From: Syntrophobacterales bacterium
GTDB lineage: Bacteria > Desulfobacterota > Desulfobaccia > Desulfobaccales > 0-14-0-80-60-11
DNA length: 32,457 nt
Assembly (NCBI GenBank): GCA_023512475.1
Contig: JAILZL010000031.1
Location: 1 to 32,457 of the forward strand
Reading direction: 5' to 3'
The translations under genes were made by a program, and so were the position numbers. The notes beneath the pieces are model-generated. The model was given only the letters and a program-made list of their open reading frames with translations. It had not been told where the DNA came from and did not search any database. Within the stretch, counting starts at the first letter, position 1, and the number at the start of each line of letters is the position of its first letter. Shown here in pieces: positions 24,781 through 32,457 of the stretch.

Positions 24781-25920
24781 TCACTGCACCTTCACATACT
24801 TGCCGTCTTTGATTTCAAAGAGATAGACGCCGCCGCCGGCCACGCCGCTGCGCACCACGTCCCGGCTCTCATTGAAGGAGAGCTTGCCGGTGACGCCGTC
24901 AAAGTCCTTCACCTCATCCAGGAATTTCTTCACTCCCTCGCTGGTGGGGCCGTATTTGGCCATGCCCGCCAGGATGAGGGAGGTGGCGTCATAAGTGAGG
25001 GCGGCGAACATGATGTTCACCGGCTCCTTGGCGGCGTCCGCCTGCCGGTAGTAGTTCTCCCGGAACTTCCGGTTTTTGGGGGTGTCATAGTTTTCGTCAT
25101 ACTCGCCGTTGATGAGATGGCCTTCCGCCGCCTTCCCCGCCAGCTTGGCGTATTCCGGGTCCATGTCGCCGTACACCCCGACGATCCTCTGGTTCAGGCC
25201 GAGGCTCCGGGCCTGGGCCGCGGCAGGCGCGGTCTCCGGGGTGTAGCCGGGGATGAAGAGGAGATCCGGGTTGGCCGCCTTGATATTGGTGAGCTGGGCC
25301 TTGAAATCCCGGGAGCCCCGCATGAAGGACTCGGTGGCCACCACCTTGATGCCCTTGGCCTCGAAGTCCTTGGTGAAGACCTCGGCGCAGCCCTTGCCGT
25401 AGGGTTCATTGCTGAAGAGGATGGCCACGGTTTTGGGCTTCAGCTTCTCGGCAATGTACTGGGTCATCACCGCGGACTGGGCGTCAATGCGGGTGCAGCC
25501 CCGGTAGAGGTAGGGGCTGGCGCCGCTGATCTTGGGGGAGGTGGCAGTAGGGGTGATGAAGACCACCTTGGCCTCATCGGCGCTCTTGAAGGCCGCCAGG
25601 GTGCCTCCGGAGGTCATGGGCCCCACCAGGGCCACCACCTTGTCCACATTGATGAGCTTCTGCACCGCATTCACCGCGGCGGTGGGGGAGTCCTTCTCGT
25701 CTTCGAAGATGACCTCCACCTTGCGGCCCTGAATGCCGCCCGCGGCGTTGACCTCATCCACCGCCATCTGCACGCCCCGCTTGGCGGGGATGCCGTGCTC
25801 GGCGCCGATGGAGAGCCTGAGCACCGAGCCGATCTTCACCGGCTCCGCCGCCAGGGCTCCGGACGCCAGACCCAGGGCGAGCACCAGGACTGCCACCAAA
25901 CAACCACGCACCATCTTCAT
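24781..25920 (-). CDS. Branched-chain amino-acid-type ABC transporter substrate-binding protein
   Basis: This is a periplasmic binding protein of the LivJ/LivK (Peripla_BP_6) family, 379 residues. A signal peptide covers residues 1-24 (MKMVRGCLVAVLVLALG, ending ALA before AEPVKIG). Family landmarks are GIPAKRGVQMAVDEVNAAGG, VVALVGPMTSGGTLAAF and the hinge-region AILFSNEPYGKGCAEVFTKD. ATG 25920, eight bases after GGGAGG, is preferred to the GTG at 25929. It is last in the liv cluster, 238 bases after the PDZ gene, and may have its own promoter. The ligand may be a branched-chain amino acid, or an aromatic acid if the neighbouring PaaK-like gene is a guide. Confidence 0.92.
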   Translation of the reverse strand: MKMVRGCLVAVLVLALGLASGALAAEPVKIGSVLRLSIGAEHGIPAKRGVQMAVDEVNAAGGIQGRKVEVIFEDEKDSPTAAVNAVQKLINVDKVVALVGPMTSGGTLAAFKSADEAKVVFITPTATSPKISGASPYLYRGCTRIDAQSAVMTQYIAEKLKPKTVAILFSNEPYGKGCAEVFTKDFEAKGIKVVATESFMRGSRDFKAQLTNIKAANPDLLFIPGYTPETAPAAAQARSLGLNQRIVGVYGDMDPEYAKLAGKAAEGHLINGEYDENYDTPKNRKFRENYYRQADAAKEPVNIMFAALTYDATSLILAGMAKYGPTSEGVKKFLDEVKDFDGVTGKLSFNESRDVVRSGVAGGGVYLFEIKDGKYVKVQ

Positions 25921-26158
25921 TTGCCACACCTCCCGGAAATATTTTCACCGCACCACAGACTGCTGACTGTATCAGGGACGGGGTCCGGGTGGTGCAGCCC
26001 GGCATACCCGGGAACCCCGGTCCTCCCCGCAGCGCCTCAGAGGCACCAGATTGTCCCGGCTGCCCCAGAGCCCCCGACCCGTTCCGGACTTTCCGGGGCG
26101 GGACCCCCAAGGGGCCGGCGCATTGACTCGGCTCTGCCCCGGGCTTCCCTCCGGTGCC

Positions 26159-27067
26159 TTAAAAACTCACCGGCGTGACCACCTTCAGTTTGATGGTCTT
26201 CCCGCCCCGGGAGACGGTGAGGATGTTCTCCTCAGGCTTCAGCAGGGCCGGCAGCTGCCGGACGGCGCTCACCTCGGTGCCGTTGACGGCCAGAAGGATA
26301 TCCCCCGCCGCCAGCCCCGCCTTGTCCGCCGGGCTGCCCTTCTCCACCTCGGTGACACCCAACCCCTGGCCCCCGGACGACGGCACCACGGAGAAGCCGA
26401 GCTTCGGGGGCGGGGCCGCGGCCGGGTGGCCGGCGCCCCCCTTCTCAAAGGTCAGGGAGGCAGGCACCTTCCCCTGGGGGACCTGGGGGTTGCGGGCCGC
26501 GGCCATCAGGGAGATCAGGACATTATACAGGGTTTCGGCGGTGTCCCGGGAGGAGGTGGCCAGGTCGGTGATGTCCGGCAGGCCGGCGGGCCCGGGGAGG
26601 ATCACCCACAGGCTCCAGGTGGGGTCCTTGGCCTCCGGCGCCATCAGGCCGGAGGAGAGCTTCACCCGGTCCAGGGGGAAGGTCTTGCTTTCCTCCACCT
26701 CCTCCGGCGTCTGGGTGGAGAAATGCAGGGGCACCGGCCGGGTGTAGATCACCCCGCTCCCCTCCCGCAGGCGGGGAACCTTATAGCGCAAAGTCAGGGT
26801 CTTGGGCCCCAGGACAAAGGCCTGGAGCGGCAGCCGGGCCGGGTCATACCCCCCTTTGTCCGAAGGGAGCATCTTCATAATCCTCACGTCCGTCAGGATG
26901 GCCTGCAACGCTCTGGCCGCCTCCTCCACCTCCCGGTAGAAGACCGGGGTGACGGAGACGGTGGTCTTGGCGCCCAGGGCGGCGCCGGCCCAGAGGCTGC
27001 CCGCCAGCCAGATACCCAGAAGGGAAAAGAGACCTTTCTTCCTTTCAGACCTGCTCTGCCGCATCAT
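26159..27067 (-). CDS. Exported PDZ-domain protein of the liv cluster
   Basis: This 302-residue protein has a signal peptide (RSERKKGLFSLLGIWLAGSL, cleaved near AALGAKT at about 33). Residues about 35-205 form a domain I do not recognise (EEAARALQAILTDVRIMK, LYNVLISLMAAARNP). A PDZ domain occupies about 223-298: LGFSVVPSSGGQGLGVTEVE, then GSPADKAGLAAGDILLAVNG. There is no protease domain, so it is not a DegP/HtrA protein; it probably binds partners in the periplasm. It starts one base after the stop of the PaaK-like gene with GGAAGG upstream, so the two are coupled. Its presence in a liv cluster is unusual. Confidence 0.78.
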   Translation of the reverse strand: MMRQSRSERKKGLFSLLGIWLAGSLWAGAALGAKTTVSVTPVFYREVEEAARALQAILTDVRIMKMLPSDKGGYDPARLPLQAFVLGPKTLTLRYKVPRLREGSGVIYTRPVPLHFSTQTPEEVEESKTFPLDRVKLSSGLMAPEAKDPTWSLWVILPGPAGLPDITDLATSSRDTAETLYNVLISLMAAARNPQVPQGKVPASLTFEKGGAGHPAAAPPPKLGFSVVPSSGGQGLGVTEVEKGSPADKAGLAAGDILLAVNGTEVSAVRQLPALLKPEENILTVSRGGKTIKLKVVTPVSF

Positions 27068-27068
27068 G

Positions 27069-28322
27069 TCAACCTTCCGACGTCATTTCCCTCAGCTTGA
27101 TCCGGGCGGTGATCCCCAGGTGATCCTGGAGGTGGCGGCGCACCAGGCGGCACAGCCCCTCCAGGGCCTTGACCTCATCGGAAAAGAGGGTCTCGTCCAG
27201 CACCAGGTGAATGTCCAGCACCTCCAGGCCGTCTTCTTCGGCCACCTGCCAGGAATGGGGCGGCAGATGCCCTCCCAAGGCCTCCCGGAGCAGGGCCCGC
27301 AGGTGCTCGGGGTGCACCTTGATGCCGCCCACGGAACAGATGGCGTCCACCCGGCCGAAGATGCCGGTGAGGCGGGGGAGGGTGCGGCCGCAGGGGCAGG
27401 GGGTGGGGTCCAGGGCGGTGCGGTCGCCGCTGCGGAAGCGCACCAGGGGGAAGGCCAGGGTGGAGAGGGTGGTGATGACCAGCTCCCCTTCCTCCCCGGG
27501 AGGCAGAGGCCGGCCGCTCTCCGGGTCCACCACCTCGGGATAGAAGTGATCGGCATTGAAGTGGAAGCCGCTTTCGGCCTCGCAGGAAAAGGCCAGTCCC
27601 GGGCCCATGACCTCGGTGATGCCGTAGGCCCGGGCGAGGCTCACCCCCAGGCCCTCCCGGAGCTCCTCCCTGACCGCCTGGGGCAGGGGCGCGGCCACCA
27701 GGAGAGCCCGTTTCAGGCTGAACTCCGCCGGGCTGAGCTCCAGGGCCCGCATGACGGTGAGGAGATGCCGGGCCGCGGGCGGAGTGGCCACCAGGACCGA
27801 GGTCTTGTAGTCCCGCATCACCATGAGCTCTTTGGCGTAATTGAGGGTGGCGGCGGGGATCACCGAGGCCCCCAGATGCTCGGCCCCGGCCTGCAGGTCC
27901 CGGCGCCAGTTGGCCAGCCCGGGGGGGATGATGAACTGCACGATGTCCTCCCGGGTGACGCCCGCCGCCCGGTAGAGGCGGGCCAAAAGCTCCAGCCAGA
28001 GCCTCAGGTCCTGGGCGGTGTAGCCCACCACCAACGGCCGCTCGGTGGTGCCCGGGGAGGAGACGATGCGCACGATGTCCCTCAGGGGCACGGCAAAGAG
28101 GCCGTAGGGATAGTTTTCCGACAGGTCCTCCCGGGTGGTGAAAGGAAGGCGCCTCAGGTCCGCCAGGGATCTGATGTCCTCCGGCCGCATCCCGGCCGCA
28201 TCGAAGCGGCGGCGGTAAAACTTCACCTGGCGGTAGGCCCGGGTGAGGGTGCTCTGGAGGCGCTCCAGCTGCAAAAGCTCCAGCTCCGCCGCGTCCACAG
28301 TCTCAGGAGAGGGCTCGTGCAC
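27069..28322 (-). CDS. PaaK-like (phenylacetate--CoA ligase family) protein, probably lacking key catalytic residues
   Basis: This 417-residue protein is a homologue of phenylacetate-CoA ligases, which activate aromatic acids with ATP and CoA. Homology is clear in YRRRFDAAGM, PFTTREDL, AYGITEVMGPGLAFSCEAE (about 232-250), PLVRFRSGDRTAL and CPCGRTLPRLTGIFGRVD (about 309-326). Two things are odd. The AMP-binding loop, usually SSGTTGKP, reads SSPGTTERP (88-96), losing a serine, a glycine and the lysine. The protein ends at about ITARIKLREMTSEG, just where the LPRSEGKAxRV motif with the catalytic lysine would begin. It may be inactive or regulatory. GTG 28322 has GGGAGG upstream and lies three bases after livF. 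Confidence 0.82.
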   Translation of the reverse strand: MHEPSPETVDAAELELLQLERLQSTLTRAYRQVKFYRRRFDAAGMRPEDIRSLADLRRLPFTTREDLSENYPYGLFAVPLRDIVRIVSSPGTTERPLVVGYTAQDLRLWLELLARLYRAAGVTREDIVQFIIPPGLANWRRDLQAGAEHLGASVIPAATLNYAKELMVMRDYKTSVLVATPPAARHLLTVMRALELSPAEFSLKRALLVAAPLPQAVREELREGLGVSLARAYGITEVMGPGLAFSCEAESGFHFNADHFYPEVVDPESGRPLPPGEEGELVITTLSTLAFPLVRFRSGDRTALDPTPCPCGRTLPRLTGIFGRVDAICSVGGIKVHPEHLRALLREALGGHLPPHSWQVAEEDGLEVLDIHLVLDETLFSDEVKALEGLCRLVRRHLQDHLGITARIKLREMTSEG

Positions 28323-28325
28323 GCC

Positions 28326-29063
28326 TTACCTCCCGTCGGTGAATTCCTTGTAGTCCCGGCCCAGATAGGCCCGGGTCACCTGGCGGTCGGCCAGAAGATC
28401 CCGGGCGGCGCCGCTTAAGATGATGCGGCCGGTCTCCAGCACGTAAGCCCGGTCGGCGATCTTCAGGGCGGCCCGGGCGTTCTGCTCCACCAGGAGCACG
28501 GTGAGGCCCTGTTTCCGGAGGCGGGCCAGGGTGGTCATGATGGCCTCCACCACCAGGGGGGCCAGGCCCAGGGAGGGCTCATCCAGCAGCAGGAGTCGGG
28601 GGCGGGCCATGAGGGCCCGGGCGATGGCCAGCATCTGCTGCTCCCCGCCGCTCATGGTGCCCGCGGGCTGCTCCAGGCGCTCCTGCAGGCGGGGAAAGAG
28701 CTGGAAGATGCGCTCCCGGTCGGCGGCGATCTCCCGGGCCGGCACCCGGCGATGGCGGCAGTAGGCCCCCAGCAGGAGATGATCCGCCACGCTCAAAGGC
28801 GCAAAGAGCTGCCGGCCCTCGGGCACCAGGGCCACTCCCAGGGAGACCAGCTCCTCGGGGGCCACGGTCATCAGGGAGCGCCCTGTAAAGGTGATCTCCC
28901 CCTCCCGGCGCACCAGCCCGGCGATGGCGTTCAGCAAGGTGGTCTTCCCCGCACCGTTGGCCCCGATCAACGCGACGATCTCCCCTTCCCGGACGTGCAG
29001 GGTGACCCCGGCCAAGGCGGTCACCGGGCCGTAGGAAGCGGTGAGATTGCGGATCTGCAACAT
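28326..29063 (-). CDS. livF: Branched-chain-type ABC transporter ATP-binding protein LivF
   Basis: This is one of two ATPase subunits of the import complex, 245 residues. Walker A is GANGAGKTT (about 37-45), the ABC signature MSGGEQQMLAIARAL is near 138-152, and Walker B is LLLLDEPSLGLAP, typical of LivF. The chosen start is ATG 29063 (MLQIRNLTASYG), which fits the family; a GTG 51 bases upstream overlaps livG. The sequence LVPEGRQLFAPLSVADHLLLGA is the LivF-type middle segment. It follows livG closely and precedes the PaaK-like gene by three bases. Confidence 0.95.
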   Translation of the reverse strand: MLQIRNLTASYGPVTALAGVTLHVREGEIVALIGANGAGKTTLLNAIAGLVRREGEITFTGRSLMTVAPEELVSLGVALVPEGRQLFAPLSVADHLLLGAYCRHRRVPAREIAADRERIFQLFPRLQERLEQPAGTMSGGEQQMLAIARALMARPRLLLLDEPSLGLAPLVVEAIMTTLARLRKQGLTVLLVEQNARAALKIADRAYVLETGRIILSGAARDLLADRQVTRAYLGRDYKEFTDGR

Positions 29064-29097
29064 GGATGCGGTTGCCTGTTCCCCCCGGAGCCGGGGT

Positions 29098-29866
<769 letters not shown>

Positions 29867-29880
<14 letters not shown>

Positions 29881-30832
29881 CCCCGCTCTCCCGGCGGAAG
29901 TGCCGGTATTCCCACAGATCCAGGAGCCCTCGCACCAGTCCCCGGGGCAGAAAGATCATCACCACCATGAGGATGGCCCCGAAGAGGACCACCTCGAAAT
30001 CGTGAAAGACCACCAGCAGTTCCGGCAGCACCGTGAGCACCCCGGCCCCCAGAAGGGAGCCCCAGATGCTGGCCATCCCCCCCACCACCACCATGGTCAC
30101 CAGCTTGATGGAGAACATGATATCAAAGGAGGAGGGCGCGACGAAGTTGAGGGTGTGGGCATAGAGACTGCCGGCCAGTGAAGCGTAGAGGGCGCTCCAG
30201 ACAAAGATGAGGAGCTTCAGGCGCTGGGTGTGGATGCCCAGGGATTCCGCGGCCACCTCGCTGTCATGCAGGGCCCTGAGGGCCCGGCCGAGGCGGGAGT
30301 CCACCAGCCCGGCGCTCAAGGCGAGAATGCCCAGGGTGGCGGTCCAGATGAGACCATAGAGGCGCAAGGGGGTGTGAAAAGTGAAACCCGGCAGGCTGAG
30401 AGCGGGGATGCCGCTCAGGCCCGAGGGCCCGCCGGTGAACCGCTGGGCCTGGACGAAAAAGATATAGACAATGACCCCGAAACCCAGGGTGGCCATGGCC
30501 AGGTAGTAGCCCCGGAGCTTCAGGGCGGGAACCCCGATGAGGAAGGCCAGGCCCGCGGCCAGGGCCAGGCCCGCGACCAGGGCCAGCCAGGGGTTCACCC
30601 CGTAGGTGGCGGTGAGGATGCCGGAGGTGTAGGCCCCCACCCCGAAGAAGGCGGCGTGCCCCAGGGAGATCTGGCCGGCATAACCCATAAGTAGATTGAG
30701 CCCCACCACCAGGATGGTGTGAATGCCGATGAAATTGAGGAGGGAGAGGTAGTAGTCGTTCCGCCACCCCAGCGGCAGCAACGCCAGGACCAGGGCGAAG
30801 CCTCCCCAGAGAGCCAGGCGGGCCCCCCTCAT
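29867..30832 (-). CDS. livM: Branched-chain-type ABC transporter permease LivM
   Basis: This is an inner-membrane permease subunit of 321 residues with about 8-10 hydrophobic helices. GLNLLMGYAGQISLGHAAFF (about 44-63), FGVGAYTSGILT, and the EAA-type loop with RALHDSEVAAESLGIHTQRL are typical LivM landmarks. The ATG overlaps the livH stop by four bases. It forms the pore with LivH and is driven by LivG and LivF. Confidence 0.95.
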
Positions 30833-31704
30833 GTCCGCCCCCCCAACAGGCCCTGGGGGCGCACGAAGAGCACCACCAGCAGGATGAAGAAGGCCACCGC
30901 GTCCCGATAGCCCGAGGAGATGAGGCCGCTGGCCAGGGATTCCGCCACCCCGAGGAGCAGACCCCCCAGGACGCCGCCCAGACTGCTCCCCAGCCCCCCG
31001 AGGATGGCGGCGGAAAAGCCCTTGAGTCCCAGCATGGTGCCCATGTCATAGACCCCCAGGGTCAGGGGCGCAATGAGAATGCCCCCGGCCGCGCCCAGGG
31101 CGGCGGAGAGGCCGAAGGAGAGCTGCACCATGCGCATGGCGGGGATGCCCACCAGGCGGGCGGCCACGGGGTTGTAGGCGCAGGCCCGCATGGCCTTGCC
31201 GGTGAGTGTCAGCCGGAAGAAGGCTTCCAGTCCCGCCACCAGGAGGGCCGCCACCCCCAAAACCCAGAGGTTCTGGGGCAGGATGGTGGCCGGCCCCAGA
31301 TGCAGGGGAGTGGCACCGGTGAAGGGGGGGAGATTGTAGGCCTCCTTGCCCCACCAGAGCATGGCCAGCCCCTTGAGGAGCACCGCGCCGCCCACGGTGA
31401 TGATGATGAGGGTGAGGGGGCTGCGGTCCTTTACCGGCCGCAAGGCCAGACGCTCAAAGAGGAGCCCCAGGAGAGTCACCAGCAGGGTGCTCCCCAGGAA
31501 GGCTGCGGGCAGGGAGGGAAAGACCTGGTAGAGGCTGATGGCGCACAGGGCCCCCAGCATGACGAACTCACCCTGGGCGAAGTTGATGATGTGGGTGGCG
31601 TTGAAGATGATGCCGAAGCCCAGGGCGATGAGGGCGTAAATGGCCCCGTTGGTAAGTCCGGAGATGAGATATTGCAGCACGGCTCCAAAGATCTCTGACG
31701 GCAT
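30829..31704 (-). CDS. livH: Branched-chain-type ABC transporter permease LivH
   Basis: This is the first permease gene of the liv cluster, 291 residues. LQYLISGLTNGAIYALIALG (about 9-28), HIINFAQGEFVMLGA and GRAMRACA-type loop TGKAMRACAYNPVAARLVGI are characteristic, followed by GLKGFSAAILGGLGSSLGGV. ATG 31704 matches the family N-terminus; a GTG at 31746 is in frame but overlaps the previous gene. The start lies two bases after the stop of the membrane glycosyltransferase gene on the same strand, so there is no separate promoter space; expression must start inside or before that gene. No strong ribosome-binding site is visible. Confidence 0.93.
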   Translation of the reverse strand: MPSEIFGAVLQYLISGLTNGAIYALIALGFGIIFNATHIINFAQGEFVMLGALCAISLYQVFPSLPAAFLGSTLLVTLLGLLFERLALRPVKDRSPLTLIIITVGGAVLLKGLAMLWWGKEAYNLPPFTGATPLHLGPATILPQNLWVLGVAALLVAGLEAFFRLTLTGKAMRACAYNPVAARLVGIPAMRMVQLSFGLSAALGAAGGILIAPLTLGVYDMGTMLGLKGFSAAILGGLGSSLGGVLGGLLLGVAESLASGLISSGYRDAVAFFILLVVLFVRPQGLLGGRT

Positions 31705-31706
31705 TG

Positions 31707-32457
31707 TTATGAATCCGACGATCGCCCGTGGGAAAAACAGTGCCACACATAGGAGGTGACCAACATGAACATGAGTGGTTCAACAGCCAGACGCCATCGG
31801 GTGGTCCCCCAAAAAATAAGGCTGACGATAATCGGGACGAAAAAGGGAATGAAAAAAATTGGATAATTATGGCAAAAATATCTTATTTTAATAAAAAACA
31901 AAATATAAAGAATAATAAATGGTGTAATCAATACTATATTTAAAATATCGATAATCAGGTTTCCTTCCTGAAAAACGCGAAAATGAGGCCGAAACGTGTT
32001 AAAAAGCCTCTTTACGGCAACCAGGGAGAGGAGAAGAGGATTATATGATTTGATTGTCTCCCAAGCTCGCCTCCATTTGTATTTATTGGCTTCCACCTCG
32101 CTCATCCGGCTTACCAGATGGATTTCCTCCGGACTGGCATAGCTGGAGAACCTCCCCCAGCTCCCGGAGCGATTTCCCAAAATCCTCTCGTTATGCGCTC
32201 CGGAAAAGACTTCCCCGGACATGGTGGAGAGGCCGACAAAATTCATGCTCCGGTGATTCCGCACCAGCCACGGTGCGATAACCGCTGCGGCACTGAGCAG
32301 GACGATCAAGGGAAAGGAGAGAAGCCGGAGGTCACGGCGCCAGACCCACATCAGGGAGAGGGTGAGAATGAAGGCAAACAGCGCTCCTTCCGCCCGGGCC
32401 AGAGTAGTAAGTCCGCAGGAGACGCCGGTTCCCACCGCGAATAAGGTTCTCTTCTCC
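31707..32457 (-). CDS. Membrane glycosyltransferase (GT39/PMT-like), C-terminal part, cut by the window end
   Basis: The frame is open to the end of the window, so only the C-terminal 249 or so residues are seen. Features are a helix preceded by ATLTRPE-like GLTTLARAEGALFAF, then IAPWLVRNHRSMNFVGLSTM followed by SGEVFSGAHNERILGN, which matches the PWxxRN...LSTNGG region of lipid-linked-sugar glycosyltransferases of the GT39/ArnT-like type. Four to five more membrane helices follow. The real start lies outside the window. The last third of the gene (about 31790-32060) is strikingly AT-rich compared with everything else here, a sign of foreign origin or a replaced segment. Substrate and role, probably surface polysaccharide or lipid A/protein glycosylation, are inferred. 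Confidence 0.7.
   Translation of the reverse strand, partial: EKRTLFAVGTGVSCGLTTLARAEGALFAFILTLSLMWVWRRDLRLLSFPLIVLLSAAAVIAPWLVRNHRSMNFVGLSTMSGEVFSGAHNERILGNRSGSWGRFSSYASPEEIHLVSRMSEVEANKYKWRRAWETIKSYNPLLLSLVAVKRLFNTFRPHFRVFQEGNLIIDILNIVLITPFIILYILFFIKIRYFCHNYPIFFIPFFVPIIVSLIFWGTTRWRLAVEPLMFMLVTSYVWHCFSHGRSSDS

Follow-up and report, generated by a model that had tools for sequence, protein, structure and literature searches.

The window analyzed here, a stretch of 32,457 nucleotides from a Syntrophobacterales bacterium, carries a closely packed set of genes in the order livH-livM-livG-livF-PaaK-like-PDZ-solute-binding protein (Table 1). The PaaK-like gene, which resembles phenylacetate-CoA ligases, has an intact reading frame that starts with GTG and stops with TGA. 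At the far end of the window (31674-32457), the likeness to a sister genome ends at the start of livH, and the open reading frame beyond it (31707-32435) has no Pfam match and a lower G+C content (0.36-0.60 vs 0.61-0.72). The contig that carries the operon head in this genome, C11, has an end that is likewise low in G+C. The break beyond livH and the end of C11 could stem from an assembly break, a mobile insertion or a rearrangement.

Table 1. Genes of the liv operon in the window and motifs of the PaaK-like protein.
Feature	Position	Strand	Basis
livH permease	30829..31746	-	PF02653
livM permease	29867..30832	-	named by operon position and match to livM of relatives
livG ATPase	29098..29880	-	LivG model, E 1.5e-77
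livF ATPase, ending 3 bases before the GTG of the PaaK-like gene	28326..29114	-	LivF model, E 7e-77
Liv-linked protein of 417 aa with the PaaK fold and no adenylation residues	27069..28322	-	ORF, profile matches, AF2 model, fit to 2y4o
A3 phosphate loop SSPGTTERP, residues 88-96 (canonical ASSGTTGKP)	28035..28061	-	sequence and alignment
A5 motif YGITEVMGPG, residues 233-242, kept	27597..27626	-	alignment
A7 motif RFRSGD, residues 295-300, ribose Asp kept	27423..27440	-	alignment
CPCGRT, residues 309-314; forms the invariant CHCC set with C247 and H254	27381..27398	-	alignment
A8 linker GRVDAICSVGGIKVHP, residues 323-338; Arg324 present, hinge Asp327 gone	27309..27356	-	alignment
TGA stop, ahead of where the A10 lysine motif would lie	27069..27071	-	sequence and orthologues
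PDZ-domain protein, ATG one base past the TGA of the PaaK-like gene; outside the conserved unit	26159..27067	-	genus-specific
Second solute-binding protein of the operon (Peripla_BP_6)	24781..25929	-	profile match

An earlier, sequence-only reading of this DNA had taken both neighbors of the PaaK-like gene, the liv ATPases and an exported PDZ protein, as clues to its function. The position beside the liv ATPases is fixed among relatives. The PDZ gene carries no weight as a clue: it adjoins the PaaK-like gene only in the three genomes of the window's own genus, its slot in other relatives being occupied by the second solute-binding protein alone or by a different gene, and we therefore rejected a PDZ partnership as a conserved feature. 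The PDZ protein has a likely signal peptide and is 57% identical between species, vs ~93% for its neighbors.

Relatives with longer contigs showed the full order of the operon: iorAB where present, a canonical paaK, an ACT-pair protein, the first solute-binding protein, livH, livM, livG, livF and the PaaK-like gene, followed in this taxonomic order by the second solute-binding protein. In the window's own genome the head of the operon lies on a separate contig, C11. The head normally encodes a canonical PaaK (SSGTTGKP, RSEGKAQRV) and the tail, here, the altered one, an arrangement with a fully canonical PaaK at the opposite end that spans 13 family-level groups. Several relatives also have small open reading frames amid the liv-operon genes (L044:9527-9886, L050:10916-11272 and L051:14367-14723), of ~118 amino acids with a start like MTKNYTDLIVWQKAMTLVTEIYR, which encode apparent four-helix-bundle proteins.

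A second liv operon, on contig C16 of the window's own genome (G000), likewise ends with a lysine-less PaaK (L054:7864-9162; loop STGSPGNP, tail RRRETSPLVIDLR) and is kept across the order. We found no ior or ACT genes near this copy in the stretch examined, so the protein's link is with the importer and not with the true PaaK.

By profile, the 417-amino-acid protein belongs near PaaK without reaching the curated thresholds of the specific models. TIGR02155 (PaaK) matched with an E value of 5e-95 and 318.5 bits against a cut-off of 646.3 bits, and NF045666 (the DVU_1553 family) with 201.7 bits against a cut-off of 300 bits. The protein also matches the AMP-binding family PF00501, and a match to PF14535 just under its cut-off covers profile positions 1-80 of 96. 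Its nearest solved relatives are PaaK2 and PaaK1 of Burkholderia cenocepacia and BT_0428 of Bacteroides thetaiotaomicron.

An AlphaFold2 model built with 36 sequences (pLDDT 91.8, pTM 0.89) contains both domains and superposes on 2y4o_B with Z 46.4, TM 0.92 and an rmsd of 2.2 Å over 412 residues at 36% identity. The model also superposes on 6he0, a structure in the thioesterification state; 2y27 and 2y4n could be fitted by either domain alone but not by the whole chain (whole-chain rmsd 11), a result that a domain rotation would produce. The pose of a predicted model is weak evidence. A loss of the cap domain, which the sequence-only reading had raised, is not borne out, since the C-terminal fold is complete in the model and only the last, lysine-bearing stretch is gone.

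The protein does have the degraded adenylation motifs and the preserved cysteine site that were read from the sequence. A gap-free alignment to PaaK paired the phosphate loop residue by residue (A88S, S89 unchanged, S90P, G91, T92, T93, G94E, K95R, P96) and thus ruled out an inserted proline; the change is one of substitution, with Ser94 of B. cenocepacia PaaK1 replaced by Pro and the next loop Gly by Glu. In PaaK1, Ser94, Thr96 and Thr97 bond the ATP phosphates, and the A10 lysine is the key catalytic residue (PMC8388817). Mutation of an A10 lysine hurts adenylation and affects thioester formation little (PMC11255334). The chain studied here ends in ...ARIKLREMTSEG*, ~16 residues short of the end of PF14535, and lacks the SEGK lysine. 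The residues for adenine and ribose (Y233, E237, D300 and R324) are all present.

The early stop could have reflected a frameshift or a sequencing error. Both were ruled out: the ATG of the next gene lies one base past the TGA, and orthologues at the level of genus, family and order stop at this point too and share the SPG loop. A displaced lysine motif was also ruled out, as the C-terminal part has only two invariant lysines in the query's clade, the linker residue K335 and a lysine of the DEVK helix, and neither is terminal. TGA flags in the orthologue search were terminal stops, which ruled out selenocysteine.

One scan of genome contigs yielded only one close relative. Orthologues are 93% identical to the window protein within the genus, 69-76% within the family and 59-63% within the order, and every whole orthologue has SPG at the loop and stops at about the same point. 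The proline at the Ser94 position is present in 20 of 20 orthologues compared from the family and order. Because the loop glutamate is sometimes glycine within the family (SSPGTTGQP; residue 94 is Gly in L020 and L026), the group is defined by the proline and the missing lysine, not by the glutamate. The loop proline and the early stop recur as a clade, in about 20 orthologues of the same family and order.

The gene is also under purifying selection. In a pairwise comparison of genomes G000 and G001, dN/dS was 0.15 for the PaaK-like gene and 0.158 for the canonical paaK, and the solute-binding protein and liv genes gave 0.105-0.152; together with the conservation, these values rule out a pseudogene. 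Lysine-less proteins across the survey described below keep the A5 Tyr (62/63), the A5 Glu (61/63), the A7 Asp (61/63) and the A8 Arg (62/63). The CHCC set (C247, H254, C309 and C311) is present in all 63 of them and in all 82 lysine-bearing proteins; the residue pattern of the set suggests zinc binding. Not kept are the serine equivalent to Ser94 (12/63), the threonine equivalent to Thr97 (26/63) and the hinge Asp (13/63). Within the query's clade, the acyl pocket has changed from YG.GLFTGG..H to PPGLANWRRD..Q and the GAEPW loop to VAAPL. The replacement of both by new, invariant residues means that the ligand has probably changed. The linker lysine K335 is new and invariant in this clade; a few lysine-bearing proteins also have Lys there.

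To see how far these features extend, we took ~150 PaaK open reading frames from genomes of the order and from a sample of the phylum (84 of 198 genomes gave a match), the survey being confined to the window's phylum. PaaKs linked to ior or ACT genes kept both the loop and the lysine in 48 of 48 cases. Among the 86 PaaKs directly after livF or livG, 61 lacked both, which is not an unbiased rate as the genes were chosen by similarity to the query; 18 had both, and none had a good loop without the lysine. The other 7 had the lysine with an altered loop, although the lysine of one of them (L116) aligns within a degraded tail and is doubtful, and the residue-retention counts above (n=63) treat L116 as lysine-less. 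The coupling of loop and lysine, and the contrast with the ACT-linked copies, are independent of the rate of 61 in 86. These two sites lie ~330 residues apart and share only the adenylation step, and they decay together. An inactive protein is not required by the position as such, since part of the after-Liv PaaKs are fully canonical.

Several liv-linked PaaKs have loops that are no longer recognizable (PSAKSSKP in L116, LRGSREAP in L124, FPGPR-TP in L133 and TAFNFEQP in L139); these four largely keep the A5 and A7 region, sit on long branches and have an unsure place in the tree. SMGNASVP is another such loop in related liv-linked proteins. In L074 and L114:1426-4162, two PaaK genes stand in tandem behind livF/livG; the first has an altered loop (TTET..TP) and the second a canonical one.

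We built a tree without the loop and tail columns. If the long-branch rows stay in, at least three changes must be assumed for the lysine-less proteins; once six long rows are taken out, all 35 lysine-less rows group as a single clade (support 85/76), which 87% of 200 bootstrap trees recover. All told, the after-Liv PaaKs form one side of a branch (89/73). Most likely, then, the lysine-less proteins are one old clade, with one to three losses possible, and we favor one old loss within a lineage linked to liv, after which the loop drifted widely. Repeated convergent loss was dropped, and we do not claim convergence, because a single clade remains once the six long rows are removed.

What is established is an intact, position-fixed PaaK paralogue that is under selection and without adenylation residues. 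The idea of an inactive or reprogrammed ligase therefore held for its central part, the adenylation site being truly degraded and the trait clade-wide in sequence, and failed for the lost cap. The behavior of known mutants, taken with the lost phosphate-contact serine, C-terminal lysine and hinge Asp, leads us to expect no acyl-AMP from ATP, and that the protein does not adenylate is an inference with good support. Less strongly supported is a part in transport, in which the protein would bind a ligand of the AMP type and regulate the importer or dock to it; its role as a sensor or chaperone, as the sequence-only reading proposed, we only infer. Overall, we lean slightly towards a non-adenylating, nucleotide-binding pseudo-ligase derived from PaaK and tied to the LivHMGF importer, which it would regulate or dock to.

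For such a protein, an ordinary CoA ligase would have been duplicated to the end of the liv operon, as position and tree support. The sequence shows that the residues for the chemistry of adenylation (phosphate-contact serine, C-terminal lysine, hinge Asp) were then lost, while purifying selection kept the fold, the adenine and ribose residues and the CHCC site. In the cytoplasm the protein would bind an AMP-containing ligand, AMP or an acyl-adenylate, and this binding would govern its regulation of, or docking to, the importer whose ATPases precede the gene. As the last and least certain step, it might act as a reporter of energy charge or of the acid taken in. Against a nucleotide, the rebuilt acyl pocket and GAEPW loop may mean a different ligand, or no nucleotide binding at all.

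There are three rival readings. The lysine-less protein might be an inactive partner that forms heterodimers with the operon's ior-linked PaaK and controls how active that PaaK is or where it is located. PaaKs are dimers whose shared sheet supports the isolated P-loop (PMC8388817), the two PaaK genes share an operon in most of the genomes whose contigs are long enough, and most genomes with a lysine-less PaaK also gave a canonical one; the lysine-less copy of the second liv operon (L054), however, has no canonical PaaK beside it, and we consider such a partnership unlikely. Somewhat less likely still, in our view, is a half-enzyme that does not adenylate but moves acyl groups between CoA and an acyl-adenylate made elsewhere, or the reverse. 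In luciferase and PrpE the thioester half reaction survives loss of the A10 lysine (PMC11255334), the ribose and adenine residues are kept, and the model adopts a pose like 2y4o and the thioesterification-state 6he0 and unlike 2y27. Yet a model's pose tells little, free acyl-adenylates are short-lived, the query's clade has rebuilt its acyl pocket and GAEPW loop, and the hinge Asp is relaxed.

We also considered an ordinary, if slow, CoA ligase, for which T92 and T93 would suffice together with another lysine, from K335 or from a partner. The query keeps both threonines, residue 94 is Gly in some orthologues (L020 and L026), and K335, invariant in the query's clade, could in principle stand in for the A10 lysine. 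But loss of the lysine always comes with an altered loop, related liv-linked proteins have loops beyond recognition (SMGNASVP, PSAKSSKP, TAFNFEQP), and K335 lies in the linker at a site where a few lysine-bearing proteins also have Lys; slow ligase activity is thus improbable.

Comparison with known systems bears on the pseudo-ligase that we favor. The protein shares with PaaK (TIGR02155; 2y4o, 2y27, 4r1l) the whole two-domain fold, A5, A7 and the A8 Arg, and differs in its loop proline, missing A10 lysine and hinge Asp, rebuilt acyl pocket and a score far under the cut-off. The DVU_1553 family (NF045666) and EhpF (3hgv) are also shortened PaaK-like proteins, but the DVU_1553 model (331 aa) and EhpF chains (~350 aa) end at about the start of the C-terminal domain, whereas the window protein keeps that domain bar its last stretch. 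An acyl-CoA ligase fold can reportedly act as a sensor: DsfR, as cited in PMC12754631, is said to sense BDSF without acting on it. DsfR and FadD1 are fatty-acid ligases of another branch that are described as transcriptional regulators, with no importer linkage. A search of the open-access literature for liv-linked or inactive PaaK found nothing relevant.

The operon's other PaaK resembles the arylacetate-CoA ligase of Bacteroides in lying beside IOR genes. The Bacteroides ior-linked ligase is active on arylacetates (PMC13285125), whereas the window protein is the operon's non-canonical paralogue, encoded at the opposite end. By analogy, the ligase linked to ior in this operon probably acts on arylacetates too. 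Aryl or branched acids are therefore the likely acids involved, and the substrate class is probably aryl or related acids. More tentatively, and as less likely than not, we propose that CoA ligases gave rise to an old family of cytoplasmic sensors, spread through the phylum, that would bind AMP or acyl-adenylates and gate Liv-type ABC importers, such that uptake of aryl or branched acids would be set by the activation state of these acids or by energy charge.

Position defines a group that, as a whole, is without adenylation residues. To sequence models, the lysine-less genes linked to liv look like phenylacetate-CoA ligases, and they are likely annotated as enzymes and counted as such in metabolic models. 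If the protein does regulate Liv importers, it would represent direct cytoplasmic control of uptake in organisms that feed on aryl or branched acids, which is not described in the open-access literature searched, and the series from canonical to degraded forms in the same operon slot would offer a clean natural record of an enzyme turning into a pseudo-enzyme.
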